A stretch of 40,704 nucleotides of DNA from assembly GCA_028716525.1 (NCBI GenBank), contig JAQUPQ010000039.1, positions 1-40,704 on the forward strand, read 5' to 3'. The notes under the pieces were generated by a model. It saw nothing but the letters and a program-made list of their open reading frames with translations, did no database searches and was not told the DNA's origin. The position numbers were made by a program, and so were the translations under genes. Below are positions 3,876-33,552 of the stretch, one piece after another; position 1 is the stretch's first letter; every line of letters begins with the position of its first letter. This stretch comes from Terriglobia bacterium (GTDB taxonomy: Bacteria > Acidobacteriota > Terriglobia > JAIQFV01).

Positions 3876-4577
3876 ATGAAAACGATAAATCGATTTAAAG
3901 CAGTGGCGCTAATCTTCTGCTTGTCCCTGATGGTTCTAGCGTCTCTACCCAGTCTTGCGAAGGCAGACGAGTGGAACAGGAAAACAACTGTGACTTTTAG
4001 CGCTCCCGTCGAAGTTCCCGGTGTGGGTGCTCAGGTCTTGCCGGCGGGCACATATGTATTCAAGATCTTTGATTCGCTGTCGGACCGCCACATCGTTCAA
4101 ATCTTCAATGTAGCGGGAGACCATGTTTATACCACCATCCTCGCCATCCCCAATTACCGTTTGAAGGCGACCGACAAAACAGTCATGACGTTTAAGGAAA
4201 GGGCGGAAGGGCAACCGGAAGCCATCCGGGCATGGTTTTATCCGGGGCGTCAATGGGGAGAGGAGTTTGTATACCCCAAGGCAAGAGCCATCGAATTGGC
4301 GAAGATTACAAATCAGCCCATTCTCGCAACGCCGATCGAACTGGCAACGGCACCCATCGAAGATTTGAAGACGGCGCCGATTGTAGCTGTTGAACCTACG
4401 GGAGAAGTGGTGGAAGTCGCTAAGGTGGTTGAGCCCCCGCCGGTCGAGGTAGCTGCCGCAGTCCCCGCGGAGAGCTTGCCCCACACGGCCAGTTCATTGC
4501 CCCTAACGGGATTGATCGGGATGCTTTCGCTGGGCGCAGGCCTTGCTCTCTTGGTTATTTCGAAGCGATCGGCTTAA
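3876..4577 (+). CDS. Secreted protein with LPxTA/LPxTG-like C-terminal sorting signal (probable sortase substrate)
   Basis: This 233-residue protein starts with a clear signal peptide (residues 1-30, cleavage likely after AKA). The globular part contains VTFSAPVEVPG, LPAGTYVFKI, HIVQIFN, AIPNYRL and AWFYPG, a pattern seen in secreted acidobacterial proteins of unknown function. Residues about 165-200 form a Pro/Val/Glu-rich spacer. The C-terminus is LPHTA at about 201, then LPLTG at about 208, a hydrophobic segment of about 20 residues and the tail SKRSA. That tripartite order is a sortase recognition signal, and a sortase is encoded 1.5 kb downstream on the same strand. Which of the two LPxT motifs is cut is unknown. 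ATG 3876 follows GTGAGG; a longer frame from 3741 is not needed. Confidence 0.8.
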   Translation: MKTINRFKAVALIFCLSLMVLASLPSLAKADEWNRKTTVTFSAPVEVPGVGAQVLPAGTYVFKIFDSLSDRHIVQIFNVAGDHVYTTILAIPNYRLKATDKTVMTFKERAEGQPEAIRAWFYPGRQWGEEFVYPKARAIELAKITNQPILATPIELATAPIEDLKTAPIVAVEPTGEVVEVAKVVEPPPVEVAAAVPAESLPHTASSLPLTGLIGMLSLGAGLALLVISKRSA

Positions 4578-4887
4578 GTCAGGTAAGTCTCTGTTTGAGC
4601 AGGCTACGCTCGTGGTTCACAGAGGACGCTTCGGGCGCCAGTTTCCTAAGGCGCCCAGGCGAGTTGACCGAGCGTCGGATTGTGAAGGGGGCGGTACGTG
4701 AGTATCACCCCTCCCTTTCACGGACGGCAGAGGTCGCAATCACCCGAACATGGGTTTTTGAAATACCGTTCCGATTCCATCAACGCGCTGGACCGGTCCG
4801 AGATCAACCCGCAACAGTACAGCGATTATAGCCAAGGACAGGCCCAAGACTGGTCAGCGGTACAACTTGATACGATGAAAAGAGAAT
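4578..4887. other. 310-base gap inside the sortase cassette
   Basis: No convincing gene. A 68-codon frame beginning with GTG 4698 (AAGGGG seven bases upstream) and running to 4904 has a plausible polar composition, but it overlaps the next gene by 17 bases and matches no family I know. No clear terminator is seen after the sortase substrate, so transcription could continue into the downstream genes. Confidence 0.4.
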
Positions 4888-5085
4888 ATGTTCACTTTTC
4901 GTGAATTCGCCGTTTGTTTGCTTGCCGCTTTCTTCGTTGTAACGCTACTCTTTAGCACCTATGTGATGTACGTGGGGCTCAAAAAGGGTGGTGGCCTCTT
5001 GCGCCGCAGAGCGCAAGCGCTTGCGCGTGCCGTCATTCAATTGAAAGCTAGACGGCTGGCTGAAAAATTCTCTTTACTCAAGTAA
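4888..5085 (+). CDS. Small single-pass membrane protein, unknown function
   Basis: The 65-residue product has one strongly hydrophobic stretch (about residues 8-30) followed by a basic tail rich in Arg, Lys and Ala (LLRRRAQALARAV and so on), so the C-terminus should face the cytoplasm. A purine-rich AAAAGAGA lies just upstream of ATG 4888. I do not recognise a family. It sits between the sortase substrate and the VWA-sortase pair on the same strand, 27 bases before the VWA gene, so it may belong to the same transcription unit. A helper or assembly role is possible but only a guess. Confidence 0.6.
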   Translation: MFTFREFAVCLLAAFFVVTLLFSTYVMYVGLKKGGGLLRRRAQALARAVIQLKARRLAEKFSLLK

Positions 5086-5112
5086 CTGGTCGTCTTTATA
5101 AGGGAGTGGGAG

Positions 5113-6126
5113 TTGAGGGCCGTGGGATTATTCAGAATCGAAGGACGCAACAAGAAGAATCGTGTGCCCACTCGCCGGTGTGTGGTTGCACTGTTCTCTT
5201 TTCTTTTTCTGTCCGGCGTTGTTTGCTCTCAAGAGCGCCCACCGACAGAAAGTCACCAAACCGACCCCTACACGATTCGAATGAATGTTGAAATGGTAAT
5301 CCTGCGCGCCACCGTCCAGAACCACAAGGGGGTCCTTGTTTCAGGACTGGGCAAAGACGACTTTCAGGTCTACGAGGACGGGGTTCTCCAACAAATCACG
5401 TATTTCACCCACCAGGATATTCCGGTCACGGTCGGCTTGGTTGTCGACAACAGTGGTAGCATGCGGCCGAAGCGCTCTGAAGTTATTGCCGCCGCCTTGG
5501 CGTTTGCCCGCTCCAGCAATTCAGAGGACCAGATGTTCGTCGTCAATTTCAACGAACACGTTTCCTTTGGCCTTCCAGCCGGCATGGAGTTCACGGACCA
5601 AATGGCTCAATTGGAGATTGCCCTCTCCAGAATTAGCGCCAACGGCGAGACGGCGCTTTACGACGCTATGGCGGCGGCGCTCGATCACCTGAAGAAAGGT
5701 AATCGGGACAAGAAGGTCCTGATCGTGGTCAGCGATGGGGGCGACAACGCCAGCAAGCACACCCTGGATCAGATCATGGCAATGGCGATAAAGTCCGACG
5801 TTATCATATATACCCTGGGTCTTTTTGAGCCGGATGATCCCGACAAGAACCCACATGTCCTCCATCAGTTTGCCAAGGCCACGGGCGGAAAGGCTTTTCT
5901 GCCGGAGACGTTAAAGGACGTGGTCCCCCTCTGTGAGCAAATTGCGCATGACATTCGTAACCAGTACACCCTCGCTTATGCATCGAGCAATGAAAAGCGG
6001 GATGGAAATTATCGGGTCGTAGCGGTGAAGGCGGGCGGTGGACACCTCACCGTTCGAACTCGCCCCGGTTACTATGCGCCGAACAAACCTCAACCATCGC
6101 CGGTCAAGCTGAGCAACAAACCATGA
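5113..6126 (+). CDS. VWFA-related domain secreted protein (acidobacterial type)
   Basis: The product has 337 residues with an N-terminal hydrophobic signal segment (about 23-40). A short beta-rich part then contains LRATVQNHKG and DFQVYEDGVLQQI, followed by a von Willebrand A domain. The metal-ion-dependent adhesion site is complete at the start: DNSGSM at residues 112-117. The later motif VVSDGGDN and the closing RNQYTLAYASSN and RTRPGYYAP pattern are those of the VWFA-related family expanded in Acidobacteriota. VWA domains bind protein ligands through a metal ion. The start is TTG 5113 with GGAG at 5103-5106. The stop overlaps the sortase ATG by four bases (ATGA), so the two are translationally coupled. 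No sorting signal is seen at its own C-terminus. Confidence 0.9.
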   Translation: MRAVGLFRIEGRNKKNRVPTRRCVVALFSFLFLSGVVCSQERPPTESHQTDPYTIRMNVEMVILRATVQNHKGVLVSGLGKDDFQVYEDGVLQQITYFTHQDIPVTVGLVVDNSGSMRPKRSEVIAAALAFARSSNSEDQMFVVNFNEHVSFGLPAGMEFTDQMAQLEIALSRISANGETALYDAMAAALDHLKKGNRDKKVLIVVSDGGDNASKHTLDQIMAMAIKSDVIIYTLGLFEPDDPDKNPHVLHQFAKATGGKAFLPETLKDVVPLCEQIAHDIRNQYTLAYASSNEKRDGNYRVVAVKAGGGHLTVRTRPGYYAPNKPQPSPVKLSNKP

Positions 6127-6809
6127 TCCTCAGAATCAGAGCGCAGCATTTTCGTCCCCAACGAAGCCAATTGATCCTCGGGTGGAGTGGAAACCTCCTT
6201 CTGGTCATCGGCGCTCTTCTGTTGGTTTACGTCGGCTACGTGATGGTCGATACGAGGATGTATCAGTCTCGCGAAACGCGGCTATTCGAGCACGCATCGA
6301 AAGATTTGAAAGTGTCCACCGACGCGGGCAAGAACCTTCCCCTGTCGCCCCGTGCTGCTCCCTTCGAGGAAGCGAACGGCGTAGGAGCCATGAGCCCCGG
6401 CAGGGCTGTTCGCAAAGGCGATCCGGTGGGAAAAATCGAGATCAGCACCATCGGTCTTGCGGCCATGATTATGGAAGGCACTGACGGAAGGACCCTGCGA
6501 CACGCTGTCGGGCATCTTCCCGGAACGCCGCTTCCGGGTCAGCTAGGAAACGTCGTGATCACCGGGCACCGGGACACGTTCTTCAGAGGTCTACGCAAGG
6601 TTACCAAAGATGATGAGATCACGTTGACGACGTTAGACGGCTCCTTCCGCTATCGCGTGGACTTTACTGAGGTGGTCACCCCCGATGACATTTCAGTGCT
6701 GGACGATTCCTCTGACGCCACTCTGACCCTCGTGACCTGTTACCCGTTCTATTTTGTGGGCCCAGCACCCAAAAGATTTATCGTCCGAGCACATCGGATT
6801 TCCGGGTGA
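6123..6809 (+). CDS. Sortase (class D/E-like transpeptidase)
   Basis: Sortases cut a C-terminal LPxT-type signal and attach the protein to an amino group, outside the cytoplasmic membrane. The 228-residue protein has an N-terminal membrane anchor at about residues 23-42 and then the sortase beta-barrel. Catalytic residues are visible: His149 in VITGHRDTFF, Cys206 in TLVTCYPF, and an Arg in PKRFIVRA (218 or 222). The TGHRDTFFRGL and CYPFYFVGPAPKRF motifs are those of class D/E enzymes. The gene is coupled to the VWA gene by a four-base overlap, and a fitting substrate with an LPHTA signal is encoded at 3876. Sortases are unusual in organisms with an outer membrane, which makes the attachment target uncertain. 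Confidence 0.93.
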   Translation: MILRIRAQHFRPQRSQLILGWSGNLLLVIGALLLVYVGYVMVDTRMYQSRETRLFEHASKDLKVSTDAGKNLPLSPRAAPFEEANGVGAMSPGRAVRKGDPVGKIEISTIGLAAMIMEGTDGRTLRHAVGHLPGTPLPGQLGNVVITGHRDTFFRGLRKVTKDDEITLTTLDGSFRYRVDFTEVVTPDDISVLDDSSDATLTLVTCYPFYFVGPAPKRFIVRAHRISG

Positions 6810-7083
6810 AGCAGAACGCCCCCTGCTGTATCGACCTCGTAAAATTTGAGACAACACTTAATTCCCTTCCTCGACAACATAACCAGCCTAAGGAAATTGC
6901 AGCGCACCTGGGAATCACCTCTCCAGAGAAGAACCGCATAAAATCTTTCTCAGACTTGAATGCGGCTTTTTCAAAAGGAATGGAACCTGAAAATGGAACC
7001 GGGTCAGAAACTCAAACCAAGGAGGAACCCCAATCATTGATAGATAGAGGGATTCAGGAAGAGCAGAGGAAAAACAGGGAATC

Positions 7084-7177
7084 TGGCGGAGAGGGAGGGA
7101 TTCGAACCCTCGTACGAGGTTTTAGCCCCGTAAACTGCTTAGCAGGCAGCCCCAATCGACCACTCTGGCACCTCTCC
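7084..7177 (-). tRNA. serX: tRNA-Ser (anticodon GCU)
   Basis: Read on the minus strand, the seven-base acceptor stem GGAGAGG pairs with CCTCTCC, followed by discriminator G and an encoded CCA. The anticodon arm has stem CTGC/GCAG around the loop CTGCTAA, giving anticodon GCU. A long variable arm (ACGGGG/CCTCGT) is typical of serine tRNAs, and the T loop GTTCGAATC is intact. The total is 94 bases including CCA. On the plus strand this region produces a false protein sequence of the well-known 'GEGGIRTLV' artefact type. Confidence 0.96.
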
Positions 7178-7237
7178 GCGTGGTCTTCAAGCACCGCGCC
7201 GTGACCCCGGTTCCGATCACCGCGTATGCGGCCCCGC

Positions 7238-9089: not shown

Positions 9090-9180
9090 TTTTTTGCAAC
9101 CGAGGATGACAACCGTGCGATAATTTCATGGCGCGAGAAGTTTGTTCGCATCCAGGCGCCGCCGGTTCGAGGATTTCCGC

Positions 9181-10602
9181 ATGTCGATTGCCCACACCGC
9201 CAGCAACAGCATCACCGTCCGGGTCCGCATGAAGAATCGCCCCGGCATGCTGGGGCGGCTTACGTCCGCCATCGGTCGCGCCGGCGGCGACATCGGGGCC
9301 GTTGACCTGGTGGAAGTCACTTCCGATTCCATCGTCCGCGACATCACCATCAACGTTCGCGACGAAAAGCACGGCGACCAGATCGTTTCGACCATCCATA
9401 AATTGAAAGACGTGACGTTGGTCAATGTCAGCGACCTCACGTTCCTGATGCATTTGGGCGGAAAGATCGAAGTCCACTCCAAATTTCCGCTGAAGACACG
9501 CGCTGATTTGTCGCGCGCTTATACTCCCGGCGTGGCGCGCGTCTGCACGGCCATCGCCGCCGACAAAGCCAAGGTTTATTCCCTCACCATCAAGAAAAAC
9601 ACCGTCGCGGTGGTCACGGACGGATCGGCCATTCTGGGCTTGGGAAATCTCGGTCCCGAAGCCGCCCTGCCCGTGATGGAAGGCAAGGCCATGCTGTTTA
9701 AAGAATTCGGCGGCGTCGATGCCTTCCCCATCGCCTTGGCCACGCAGAACACCGAAGAAATCATTCAAGCCTGCAAGGCCATAGCGCCGGTGTTTGGCGG
9801 CATCAACTTGGAGGACATCGCGGCGCCGCGTTGCTTCGAAGTGGAAGAGCGATTGAAGAAGGATTTGGACATCCCGGTCATGCACGACGATCAACACGGC
9901 ACGGCGGTGGTGGTGCTGGCGGCGTTAATCAATGCCTTGCGCATTGTGAAAAAGAAACCCGAGAAATTGAAGGTCGTCGTTTCCGGCGTGGGTGCAGCCG
10001 GAGTGGCCTGCACAAAAATATTGATGGCCTACGGTGTGAAGCGTTTCATTGGCTGCGACCGCATGGGCGCTATTTTCAAAGGCCGCACCGAGAACATGAA
10101 TGTAGCGAAAAACTGGTATGCCGAACACACCAACACGGAAGGTTTCAAGGGCGGTCTGGAAGAAGCGCTCAAAGAGGCCGATGTTTTTTTGGGACTGTCC
10201 GGACCCGGCACGGTGAAGGCCAAGTGGCTGAAGCGCATGGCCCGGAACTCCATCGTGTTTGCGATGGCGAATCCGACCCCGGAAGTCATGCCGGAAGAAG
10301 CGGCGCCGTATGTGCGCATCATGGCCACCGGACGCAGTGACTATCCCAACCAGATCAACAATGTGCTGGCCTTCCCGGGAATCTTCAGAGGTGCGCTGGA
10401 TTGTCGCGCCCGCGAAATCAACGAAGCCATGAAACTGGCAGCGGCGAAGGCCATTGCTTCCATCATCACGCCCAAGGAATTGCACGATGACTACATCATT
10501 CCTTCCGTGTTCGACACGCGCGTCGCCAAAGCCGTGGCTCAAGGCGTGATGCAAGCTGCACAAAAAACCGGCGTCGCCCGAAGGCAGGCTCGGGAAAGCT
10601 AG
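9181..10602 (+). CDS. NAD(P)-dependent malic enzyme with N-terminal ACT domain
   Basis: Malic enzyme oxidatively decarboxylates malate to pyruvate in the cytoplasm. The 473-residue protein begins with an ACT regulatory domain (residues about 8-85, with NRPGMLGRLTSAI and DITINVRD), followed by the catalytic part: the AYTPGVA tyrosine motif, TDGSAILGLGNLGP, VMEGKAMLFK with the catalytic lysine, the metal-binding HDDQHGTAVV, the Rossmann loop SGVGAAGVACTKI and NNVLAFPGIFRGAL. ATG 9181 with GAGG at 9169-9172 is preferred to TTG 9142. The ACT domain implies control by a small ligand, perhaps an amino acid. It lies between rex and the aldolase/microcompartment genes on one strand, which may link it to redox balance. 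No shell-targeting extension is obvious. Confidence 0.94.
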   Translation: MSIAHTASNSITVRVRMKNRPGMLGRLTSAIGRAGGDIGAVDLVEVTSDSIVRDITINVRDEKHGDQIVSTIHKLKDVTLVNVSDLTFLMHLGGKIEVHSKFPLKTRADLSRAYTPGVARVCTAIAADKAKVYSLTIKKNTVAVVTDGSAILGLGNLGPEAALPVMEGKAMLFKEFGGVDAFPIALATQNTEEIIQACKAIAPVFGGINLEDIAAPRCFEVEERLKKDLDIPVMHDDQHGTAVVVLAALINALRIVKKKPEKLKVVVSGVGAAGVACTKILMAYGVKRFIGCDRMGAIFKGRTENMNVAKNWYAEHTNTEGFKGGLEEALKEADVFLGLSGPGTVKAKWLKRMARNSIVFAMANPTPEVMPEEAAPYVRIMATGRSDYPNQINNVLAFPGIFRGALDCRAREINEAMKLAAAKAIASIITPKELHDDYIIPSVFDTRVAKAVAQGVMQAAQKTGVARRQARES

Positions 10603-31380: not shown

Positions 31381-33552
31381 ATGAAGCGTTGGATTTCCTT
31401 TGTTTTGTGCTCCGCCTTATTGCTGAACCCCTTCGTGTCTGCATGGTCCCAAACACAATCGGGCGCTCGCTTTAAGATTTATGCGGATTTGGTCCTGGTG
31501 GACGTGCGGGTCGACGACCGCCATGGAAACCCCGTTCAGAACCTGGAGAAAAAAGATTTTCATGTTTACGAAGATGGAGTGGAACAATCCCTTGCCGTCT
31601 TCCGCTACCAGGATGTGACCCGGACAGAAGTTGCCGCCAAACCCGAAACCCCGGCCACGCCATTACCCCCGGCACCGGCCGCCGAGAAAAAACCTCCCGT
31701 CCCTCTGGGTCAAAGCGACGATTCCCAGTATTCCGATCGGCGTTTGATTGTCATGATGTTCGATTTGAGTTCTCTGGATGCATCGGATGCTTTGTACGCG
31801 CGCAAAACGGCCGAAGATTATTTGAAGACCAAGATTGCGCCGGCGGATTTGGTTGCCGTCGTCGTTATGGCCGCATCGCTTCGCGTGGTTCAAGATTTCA
31901 CCGATGATAAGAAGCTGCTGGAAGCCGCGCTGAACAAAATCAAACTCGGTCAAAGCACCGATCTGTCGGCACAAGGCCTTACCGATCCCACGGCCAACGA
32001 CAATACCGGCACCGTTGAAAACACCAACGAAGACACCTCCGATCCCTTCGCGGTCGATGATACCCAATTCAACATTTTTAATACCGATCGCAAACTGGTG
32101 GCCATCGAGTCGGTCGCCAAGATGCTGCAAGATCTTCCGGAACGAAAGTCGCTGATTCACTTCTCCAGTGGAATCACAACCACCGGCGTCGAAAACGACG
32201 CCCAGGTGAAAGCCACGGTGTACGCCGCCAATCGCGCCAACATGTCGATTTACGCGGTGGACTCCCGAGGGTTGGTGGCGACTCCTGCCGGGGGTGATGC
32301 CAGCCGCGGCGGGACGGGCGGCACGGCCATGTTCAGCGGCGCCTCCATCCGCTCCGGTCTCGATCAAATCAGCTCGGCGCAAGACACGTTGGTCACGCTA
32401 TCCGAGGACACCGGGGGCCGCGCCTTCATCGACACCAACGACCTCGGCCAAGTCTTCGATCAAGTTCATGAGGACACCCGCAGTTATTATCTGGTGGGCT
32501 ACTATTCATCCAACACCAAACATGACGGGCGGTTCCGCCGCATCAAGGTCACGGTCGATGTGCCCGACGTCAAACTGCAGTTCCGCCAAGGTTACATTGC
32601 CCCCAAGGAATTCGGCCAACTCACCAAGGATGAGCTCAATCGTCAATTGGAAGAGGCTCTCAACACCGACGCTCCATTCACCGATCTGCCGTTCATCCTG
32701 GGCGCCTATTCCTTCGAAGTCCCAGACCCTAAAGATCCCAAGACAACGGAAATGTTTGTGCCGGTTTCATTGCGCCTGCCTTCCAGCGATGTGCCCTTTA
32801 CCGACAAACGCGATCGCAAGGAAACTAACTTTGATTTTGTGGGAGCCGTCCAGGATCCGGCGCGGGCCAACACCATGGTGAGCTACGTTCGTGACACCAT
32901 CCACCTGAAACTCGACGACGCCTTATATGCCCGCATTGCCGCCGGCGGCTCCATTCAATACGACACCGGGTTTTTCCTGCGGCCGGGGAATTACAAATTG
33001 AAGTTCCTGATCCGCGAGAATCAAACCGGCAAGATTGGAACCTTCGAACAGGCGTTGGTGGTTCCTGATTTATCGAAGCAAGCCTTCAAAATGAGTTCGG
33101 TGGTTTTGAGCAGCCAGTTGCAGCCCATCGACAAAATGCAGGTGGGGGTGACACGCACGAACGACCGCGACGCCTTGTTGCAAAGGCAGGATAAAATCCC
33201 GAATCCGCTGGTTCAGAACCAGCAGAAGATTGTTCCCAACGTGGGCCATGTCTTTTCGGCGCGACAGACCTTGTACAGCTTTTTCCAGGTCTACCAACCC
33301 GCCGTCGATCCTCAGACCAAGAAGCCGCACATCGATTTGGCGGTGCTATTTTTTAAAGATGGAAAGAAAGTTTTCCAAAGCCCCGAATATGAGGTCGATC
33401 AGTTCAATGCCGATTCATTGACCACGGTGGACTGCAATTTCACAACGCCGCTCACTCAATTTGCGCGAGGGCGCTACCTCATGCAGCTGGTGGTCACCGA
33501 TCAGATTGCCGGCACACACGCCTACAAGAGAATCCCGTTTGTGGTGAAATGA
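31381..33552 (+). CDS. VWFA-related domain secreted protein, large form, paired with receptor 3
   Basis: The 723-residue protein has a signal peptide (1-24), the N-terminal beta-region seen in the VWFA-related family (VLVDVRVDDRHGNPV, then KDFHVYEDGVEQSL), a Pro/Ala-rich linker, and the A domain starting at MMFDLSSLDASDALYARK. The metal-binding motif is imperfect (DLSSL instead of DxSxS). After the A domain (RSYYLVGYYSSN, FRQGYIAPKEF) comes a C-terminal region of about 300 residues of unknown fold. The start lies ten bases after the stop of the receptor, so the two are very likely co-transcribed. Outer-membrane receptor plus secreted VWA partner suggests a joint surface function, which is inference. 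Confidence 0.88.
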   Translation: MKRWISFVLCSALLLNPFVSAWSQTQSGARFKIYADLVLVDVRVDDRHGNPVQNLEKKDFHVYEDGVEQSLAVFRYQDVTRTEVAAKPETPATPLPPAPAAEKKPPVPLGQSDDSQYSDRRLIVMMFDLSSLDASDALYARKTAEDYLKTKIAPADLVAVVVMAASLRVVQDFTDDKKLLEAALNKIKLGQSTDLSAQGLTDPTANDNTGTVENTNEDTSDPFAVDDTQFNIFNTDRKLVAIESVAKMLQDLPERKSLIHFSSGITTTGVENDAQVKATVYAANRANMSIYAVDSRGLVATPAGGDASRGGTGGTAMFSGASIRSGLDQISSAQDTLVTLSEDTGGRAFIDTNDLGQVFDQVHEDTRSYYLVGYYSSNTKHDGRFRRIKVTVDVPDVKLQFRQGYIAPKEFGQLTKDELNRQLEEALNTDAPFTDLPFILGAYSFEVPDPKDPKTTEMFVPVSLRLPSSDVPFTDKRDRKETNFDFVGAVQDPARANTMVSYVRDTIHLKLDDALYARIAAGGSIQYDTGFFLRPGNYKLKFLIRENQTGKIGTFEQALVVPDLSKQAFKMSSVVLSSQLQPIDKMQVGVTRTNDRDALLQRQDKIPNPLVQNQQKIVPNVGHVFSARQTLYSFFQVYQPAVDPQTKKPHIDLAVLFFKDGKKVFQSPEYEVDQFNADSLTTVDCNFTTPLTQFARGRYLMQLVVTDQIAGTHAYKRIPFVVK

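Follow-up and report, generated by a model that had tools for sequence, protein, structure and literature searches.

The stretch studied here (the window) comprises the 40,704 nucleotides of contig JAQUPQ010000039.1 from a Terriglobia bacterium, a genome placed in Acidobacteriota. Its positions 3876–6809 hold a cassette of four open reading frames (ORFs), all on the + strand and at the positions given in an original prediction made from the sequence alone. Its products, in gene order, are a secreted protein ending in a sorting signal, a small membrane protein, a secreted VWA protein and a sortase, with the following features.

3876..4577, + strand: sortase substrate of 233 aa, with a signal peptide, a beta-rich domain (residues ~30–135), a linker and the C-terminal sorting signal (alignment of 53 orthologues)
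4476..4574, + strand: C-terminal sorting signal LPHTA-SSLPLTGLIGMLSLGAGLALLVIS-KRSA (signal profile, E = 1.9e-14)
4888..5085, + strand: ORF for a small membrane protein of 65 aa, with a single hydrophobic segment and a basic tail
5113..6126, + strand: secreted VWA protein of the acidobacterial TIGR03436 type (220 bits), with a metal site and without a sorting signal of its own
6123..6809, + strand: class D-like sortase (PF04203), with an N-terminal membrane helix and the residues H149, C206 and R218

The VWA and sortase genes overlap by 4 bases and the metal site of the VWA protein is intact, so a sortase accompanied by a fitting substrate and by a coupled VWA protein, as predicted, is present in the window. 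The cassette is probably a dedicated sorting system, in which the sortase cleaves the tail of the substrate and transfers the protein, most likely to diaminopimelate peptidoglycan, with the VWA protein as a partner.

In the whole assembly (4.2 Mb, completeness 96.5%), this is the only sortase found. Further LPxTA/LPxTG signals, proposed as a check of the original prediction, were sought by profile only, and a single convincing signal was obtained, that of the substrate; the runner-up (E = 0.024) is internal to a glycosyltransferase. Within the reach of the profile, the cassette is a dedicated pair, in which the genome's one enzyme and one target are encoded close together; at the given completeness of the assembly a second target might be missed. 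The outer membrane marker LptD is present, which supports an outer membrane in a host that had been described as presumably Gram-negative. The closest relatives of the host in the sortase scan are Terriglobia metagenome-assembled genomes (MAGs).

The substrate and its sorting signal

The substrate begins with an ordinary signal peptide (AKA-D) and has no lipobox. Its AlphaFold model has a pLDDT of 83; the domain matched no Pfam family, and a Foldseek search against the PDB found no hit at E < 0.7. The linker that joins the domain to the tail contains a conserved stretch, LKxAPVxAVxPTGEEV (residues ~165–178). The C-terminal tail, LPHTASSLPLTGLIGMLSLGAGLALLVISKRSA, shows the characteristics of an LPxTG-type signal (LPxT[GA], a hydrophobic stretch and a basic C-terminus on a secreted protein).

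The signal is retained in all 57 substrate orthologues (window included); its absence from orthologues, named beforehand as an argument against the system, was not seen. The P and T of LPxT are invariant and the third residue is variable. The fifth residue is A in 44, G in 9 and S in 4 orthologues, the sixth is S in 51 and G in 6, and the signals continue as x-LPL-x-[AG]-L-x-G-LL. The tail had been described as LPHTA...LPLTG with a hydrophobic segment and a basic tail, of which the LPHTA part stands. LPLTG was rejected as a second motif and belongs to the hydrophobic segment or second block: since a T is found at that place in 1 of the 57 proteins, that of the window, the motif is LPHTA alone.

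With the standard models the tail scores marginally for TIGR01167 (16.5 bits in the genome search and 13.5 in hmmscan; cut-off 15.9), and it lies under the curated cut-offs of NF058670, the model of the LPxTATN signal (17.9 bits, cut-off 32), and of Pfam PF00746. TIGR01167 was discarded as a genome-wide detector, being uninformative (at a lax threshold all 14 control genomes are matched). The portable signal LPxT[A/G/S][S/G]xLPL, which scores at or below the cut-offs of such models, lets the cargo in these genomes be listed.

The distribution of PF04203 and of the signal profile was compared in 396 Acidobacteriota genomes, with matches in 82 and 60 genomes, respectively. A sortase is present in 59 of the 60 signal-positive genomes. 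The sixtieth match (G185) is an internal membrane segment and was dismissed as an exception, being a false match. The counts by genus are 45/46 versus 62/214 (Fisher 7e-31), with kinship only partly removed by such counting. In the sortase-negative genomes G392, G103, G140, G108, G160 and G213, the ORFs of substrate-domain homologues stop shortly after the domain and are tailless. Forty signal regions were retrieved; 39 of them contain a tailed ORF, and the fortieth falls at a contig edge. The N-terminal parts of these secreted proteins comprise VIT-VWA, DUF4142, DUF6152 and PG_binding_1, and several are unclassified. The same tail thus occurs on secreted proteins of unrelated domains, which points to a portable sorting signal, a behavior that would not emerge from mean identity alone. 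Single examples of cargo are a PG_binding_1 protein with the sorting tail (L147) and a VIT-VWA protein with an LPRTG tail from Acidobacteriota (L155, G060:C22), the latter resembling the targets of class GN sortases.

The sortase and its linked VWA protein

The sortase matches PF04203 with 108 bits (cut-off 26.6), and its AlphaFold model (pLDDT 89) resembles solved sortases, with sortase D of Clostridium perfringens (4d70) as the top PDB match. H149, C206 and R218 are identical in 81/81 sortase homologues. The best model is that of the LPxTATN-specific class D enzymes, NF058671 (151.5 bits, cut-off 140), a cut-off straddled by the relatives (126–155 bits), and the score for the general class D model NF033746 is below threshold (132.9 bits, cut-off 165). 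Class E was rejected (NF033747, 89.7 bits, cut-off 160), as was class GN (TIGR03784, 95.5 bits, cut-off 158.25; the VWA protein is tailless and reaches 29 bits for TIGR03788 against a cut-off of 551). By its sequence the enzyme is a class D-like sortase and not class E; of the former assignment, a class D/E-like sortase with complete His-Cys-Arg motifs, the class D part and the catalytic triad are retained.

Species genomes were scanned with the window sortase, giving 80 loci and a tree of 81 sortases. Around the 80 related sortases, 74 tripartite tails lie on the sortase strand within 5 kb. The opposite strand carries just one across the full extent of the loci, and it too adjoins its sortase. 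In the tree, 61 of the 81 enzymes group with the substrate family of the window, and a VWA gene is linked to 48 of these 61. The sister clade consists of 20 sortases from Acidobacteriota, Myxococcota and Pseudomonadota MAGs. None has a linked VWA protein of the TIGR03436 type, and 18 adjoin a secreted protein with the same tail, mostly with different domains. As this clade keeps the tail without the VWA protein, the enzyme and the tail form the core, and the VWA protein is a clade-specific partner. A second cargo family, secreted and with the same tail, is found beside sister-clade sortases (L062, L065, L068, L077, L080, L132, L140 and others); it is built of repeats of the type GNDLVVKMADGTIRHxxVPDxxxFTVDGxxLxVxDLKPGM, and the one member checked had no Pfam match.

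The VWA protein of the window scores well above the TIGR03436 cut-off of 81.25 bits, and its metal site comprises D112-x-S114-x-S116, T180 and D208. In the 48 linked VWA proteins D112, S114, T180 and D208 are present without exception, and S116 is replaced by T in one protein and kept in the other 47. All 48 lack a sorting signal. In 47 loci, window included, the VWA gene immediately precedes that of the sortase, and 44 of these also have a full substrate. In the remaining three, a truncated signal-bearing substrate is located at a contig edge (L034), or the contig breaks off inside the VWA gene or right ahead of it (L051 and L063). VWA–sortase pairs lacking a nearby substrate, which the original prediction named as counter-evidence, were hence not found where the contig allows a view. 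The 4-base overlap is seen in 32 of the 44 co-directional pairs with a substrate in the locus. In many Bryobacterales (L010, L015, L041, L043) a malic enzyme gene sits between the substrate and VWA genes, which suggests that the linkage is maintained despite rearrangement.

It may be argued that the VWA gene is unrelated to sorting and merely shares the transcript, an explanation to which we assign a minor but real chance. TIGR03436-type proteins are named for Acidobacteria, a second related VWA protein is encoded in the window (31381–33552; phmmer 2e-13), and the VWA–sortase pair is missing in the sister clade. On the other side, the overlap and the gene order persist in 44 loci of several orders, even with the malic enzyme gene interposed, and the linkage is clustered on the sortase tree, with 9 changes compared with 25.8 in shuffles.

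For the small membrane ORF, phmmer found counterparts immediately before the VWA gene in no loci but L002 (1e-16), L004, L003 and L006; on this comparison, it appears confined to the four closest relatives. The four-gene order, suggested for testing across Acidobacteriota, therefore holds for the substrate and the sortase; the VWA gene is clade-restricted and the small ORF belongs to the closest relatives only. Near the cassette, no multiple subunits of a pilus assembly were found, and scans for promoters and terminators gave no more than the shuffled level. The ORF that follows the sortase (6806–7204) overlaps a tRNA-Ser on the opposite strand (7084–7177) and was taken as spurious. Further downstream of the sortase lies a malic enzyme-like ORF (9142–10602). 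The second VWA ORF directly follows a large ORF resembling a TonB-dependent receptor.

Proposed reaction and alternatives

In the proposed mechanism, the substrate would be exported by Sec and retained by its tail in the inner membrane. The sortase, itself membrane-bound and with C206 as the nucleophile assisted by H149 and R218, would cut LPHT-A after T, and the resulting thioacyl-bound substrate would be passed to an amine, the likeliest being the free side chain of meso-diaminopimelate in the stem peptides of lipid II or peptidoglycan. The mature substrate would then be attached to peptidoglycan in the periplasm and face the outer membrane. The VWA protein, which is co-transcribed, may act as a secreted partner by binding the substrate or aiding its delivery, as suggested solely by its linkage and intact metal site.

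The acceptor is indicated by the genome of the host, in which MurE carries an SDNPR motif. A DNPR motif in MurE is associated with meso-diaminopimelate, and the class D sortase of Bacillus anthracis links its target to diaminopimelate. Taken together, LptD, a diaminopimelate-type MurE and the B. anthracis precedent make the substrate on periplasmic peptidoglycan the likeliest product. The anchoring nucleophile, originally called not obvious, is in part narrowed by the MurE motif, which points to diaminopimelate peptidoglycan.

Several points weigh against the proposed system. No signal is found in 23 of the 82 sortase-positive genomes at the threshold used, and the substrate could be hydrolysed rather than attached. 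Cleavage, acceptor and localization are deduced from sequence, the acceptor by analogy with the B. anthracis case. Furthermore, since the sister clade lacks the VWA protein, the reaction itself can do without it.

In one alternative, the sortase mainly trims the tail, with water or a small amine as the acceptor, and the substrate is freed to the periplasm or exported to the surface, as proposed for exosortase/PEP-CTERM. Such a release would suit the cargo, composed of small secreted domains with long linkers, but it is unlikely, as sortases are mechanistically transpeptidases, the expected peptidoglycan acceptor is indicated in the genome by the MurE motif, and no linked genes for an outer-membrane transporter or exopolysaccharide were noticed among the neighboring ORFs, judged from reading the translations and not by a family search.

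Attachment to peptidoglycan could also serve as a tether, in which the pinned proteins bridge the wall to the outer membrane via lipoprotein cargo or, in the window, via protein contacts. In two relatives the cargo (L055, 335–664, and L134, a 266-aa frame on the - strand) starts with a lipobox, continues with a low-complexity linker and ends in the sorting signal, as in possible double-anchored tethers. These are the two clear cases among 126 signal matches (L049 seems to have a weak lipobox), and the window substrate has an ordinary signal peptide in place of a lipobox, which renders this role improbable for the cassette. That the tail is a mere membrane anchor resembling a sorting signal, with the sortase acting elsewhere or being a relic, can be practically dismissed: the scores under the PF00746 and NF058670 cut-offs would agree with it, but the invariant P and T with a variable third residue already contradict it, as do the near-perfect co-occurrence with sortase and the complete, conserved catalytic site.

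The preferred reading remains the transfer of the substrate to peptidoglycan. As a tentative extension, on the doubtful side, a class D-like sortase lineage of Acidobacteriota, with relatives among MAGs of Myxococcota and Pseudomonadota and an LPxTASxLPL signal of its own, might fix secreted proteins on periplasmic diaminopimelate peptidoglycan. Some of these proteins, lipidated at the other end, would connect the wall with the outer membrane. Should the product indeed sit on peptidoglycan, wall anchoring by sortases would extend to diderm soil bacteria and may include a new type of outer-membrane tether. With one enzyme and one target, the cassette offers a minimal test case for the role of sortases in outer-membrane bacteria.

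Comparison with known sorting systems

Most of what is known about sortases comes from bacteria that lack an outer membrane. In the open literature (most subscription journals not covered) no paper on an acidobacterial sortase system was found, and the only mention is that Solibacter usitatus has six sortase genes (PMC3174227). A dedicated, strictly Gram-negative system with a VWA target is already described: the class GN sortase (TIGR03784), whose target is a VIT-VWA protein (TIGR03788) (PMC3237569). The window cassette is likewise a single-target cassette of an outer-membrane host that includes a VWA protein and an LPXTG-like tail. It differs in the type of sortase, for which class D models are preferred, in the target, another protein with an undescribed domain, and in the VWA protein, which is tailless and has no VIT match.

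Among class D enzymes, SrtC of B. anthracis recognizes LPNTA (PMC12445088), and LPXTA targets of class D sortases are described in Bacillus (B. cellulosilyticus) (PMC3617157). The class D/LPXTA systems (NF058671/NF058670) share with the cassette the best sequence family, the class D enzyme as top PDB match, the LPxTA motif and the frequent location of the enzyme beside its target, whereas the window host has an outer membrane and its signal continues with S-x-LPL and not TN.

Exosortase/PEP-CTERM, rhombosortase/GlyGly-CTERM and myxosortase/MYXO-CTERM also combine, in outer-membrane bacteria, a portable C-terminal motif, a membrane helix and a basic tail that co-occur with a processing enzyme, but their enzymes are unrelated to sortase. 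In the attachment of Braun lipoprotein and others by L,D-transpeptidases the product would likewise be a protein covalently bound to diaminopimelate, formed by another enzyme and with another C-terminal signal.
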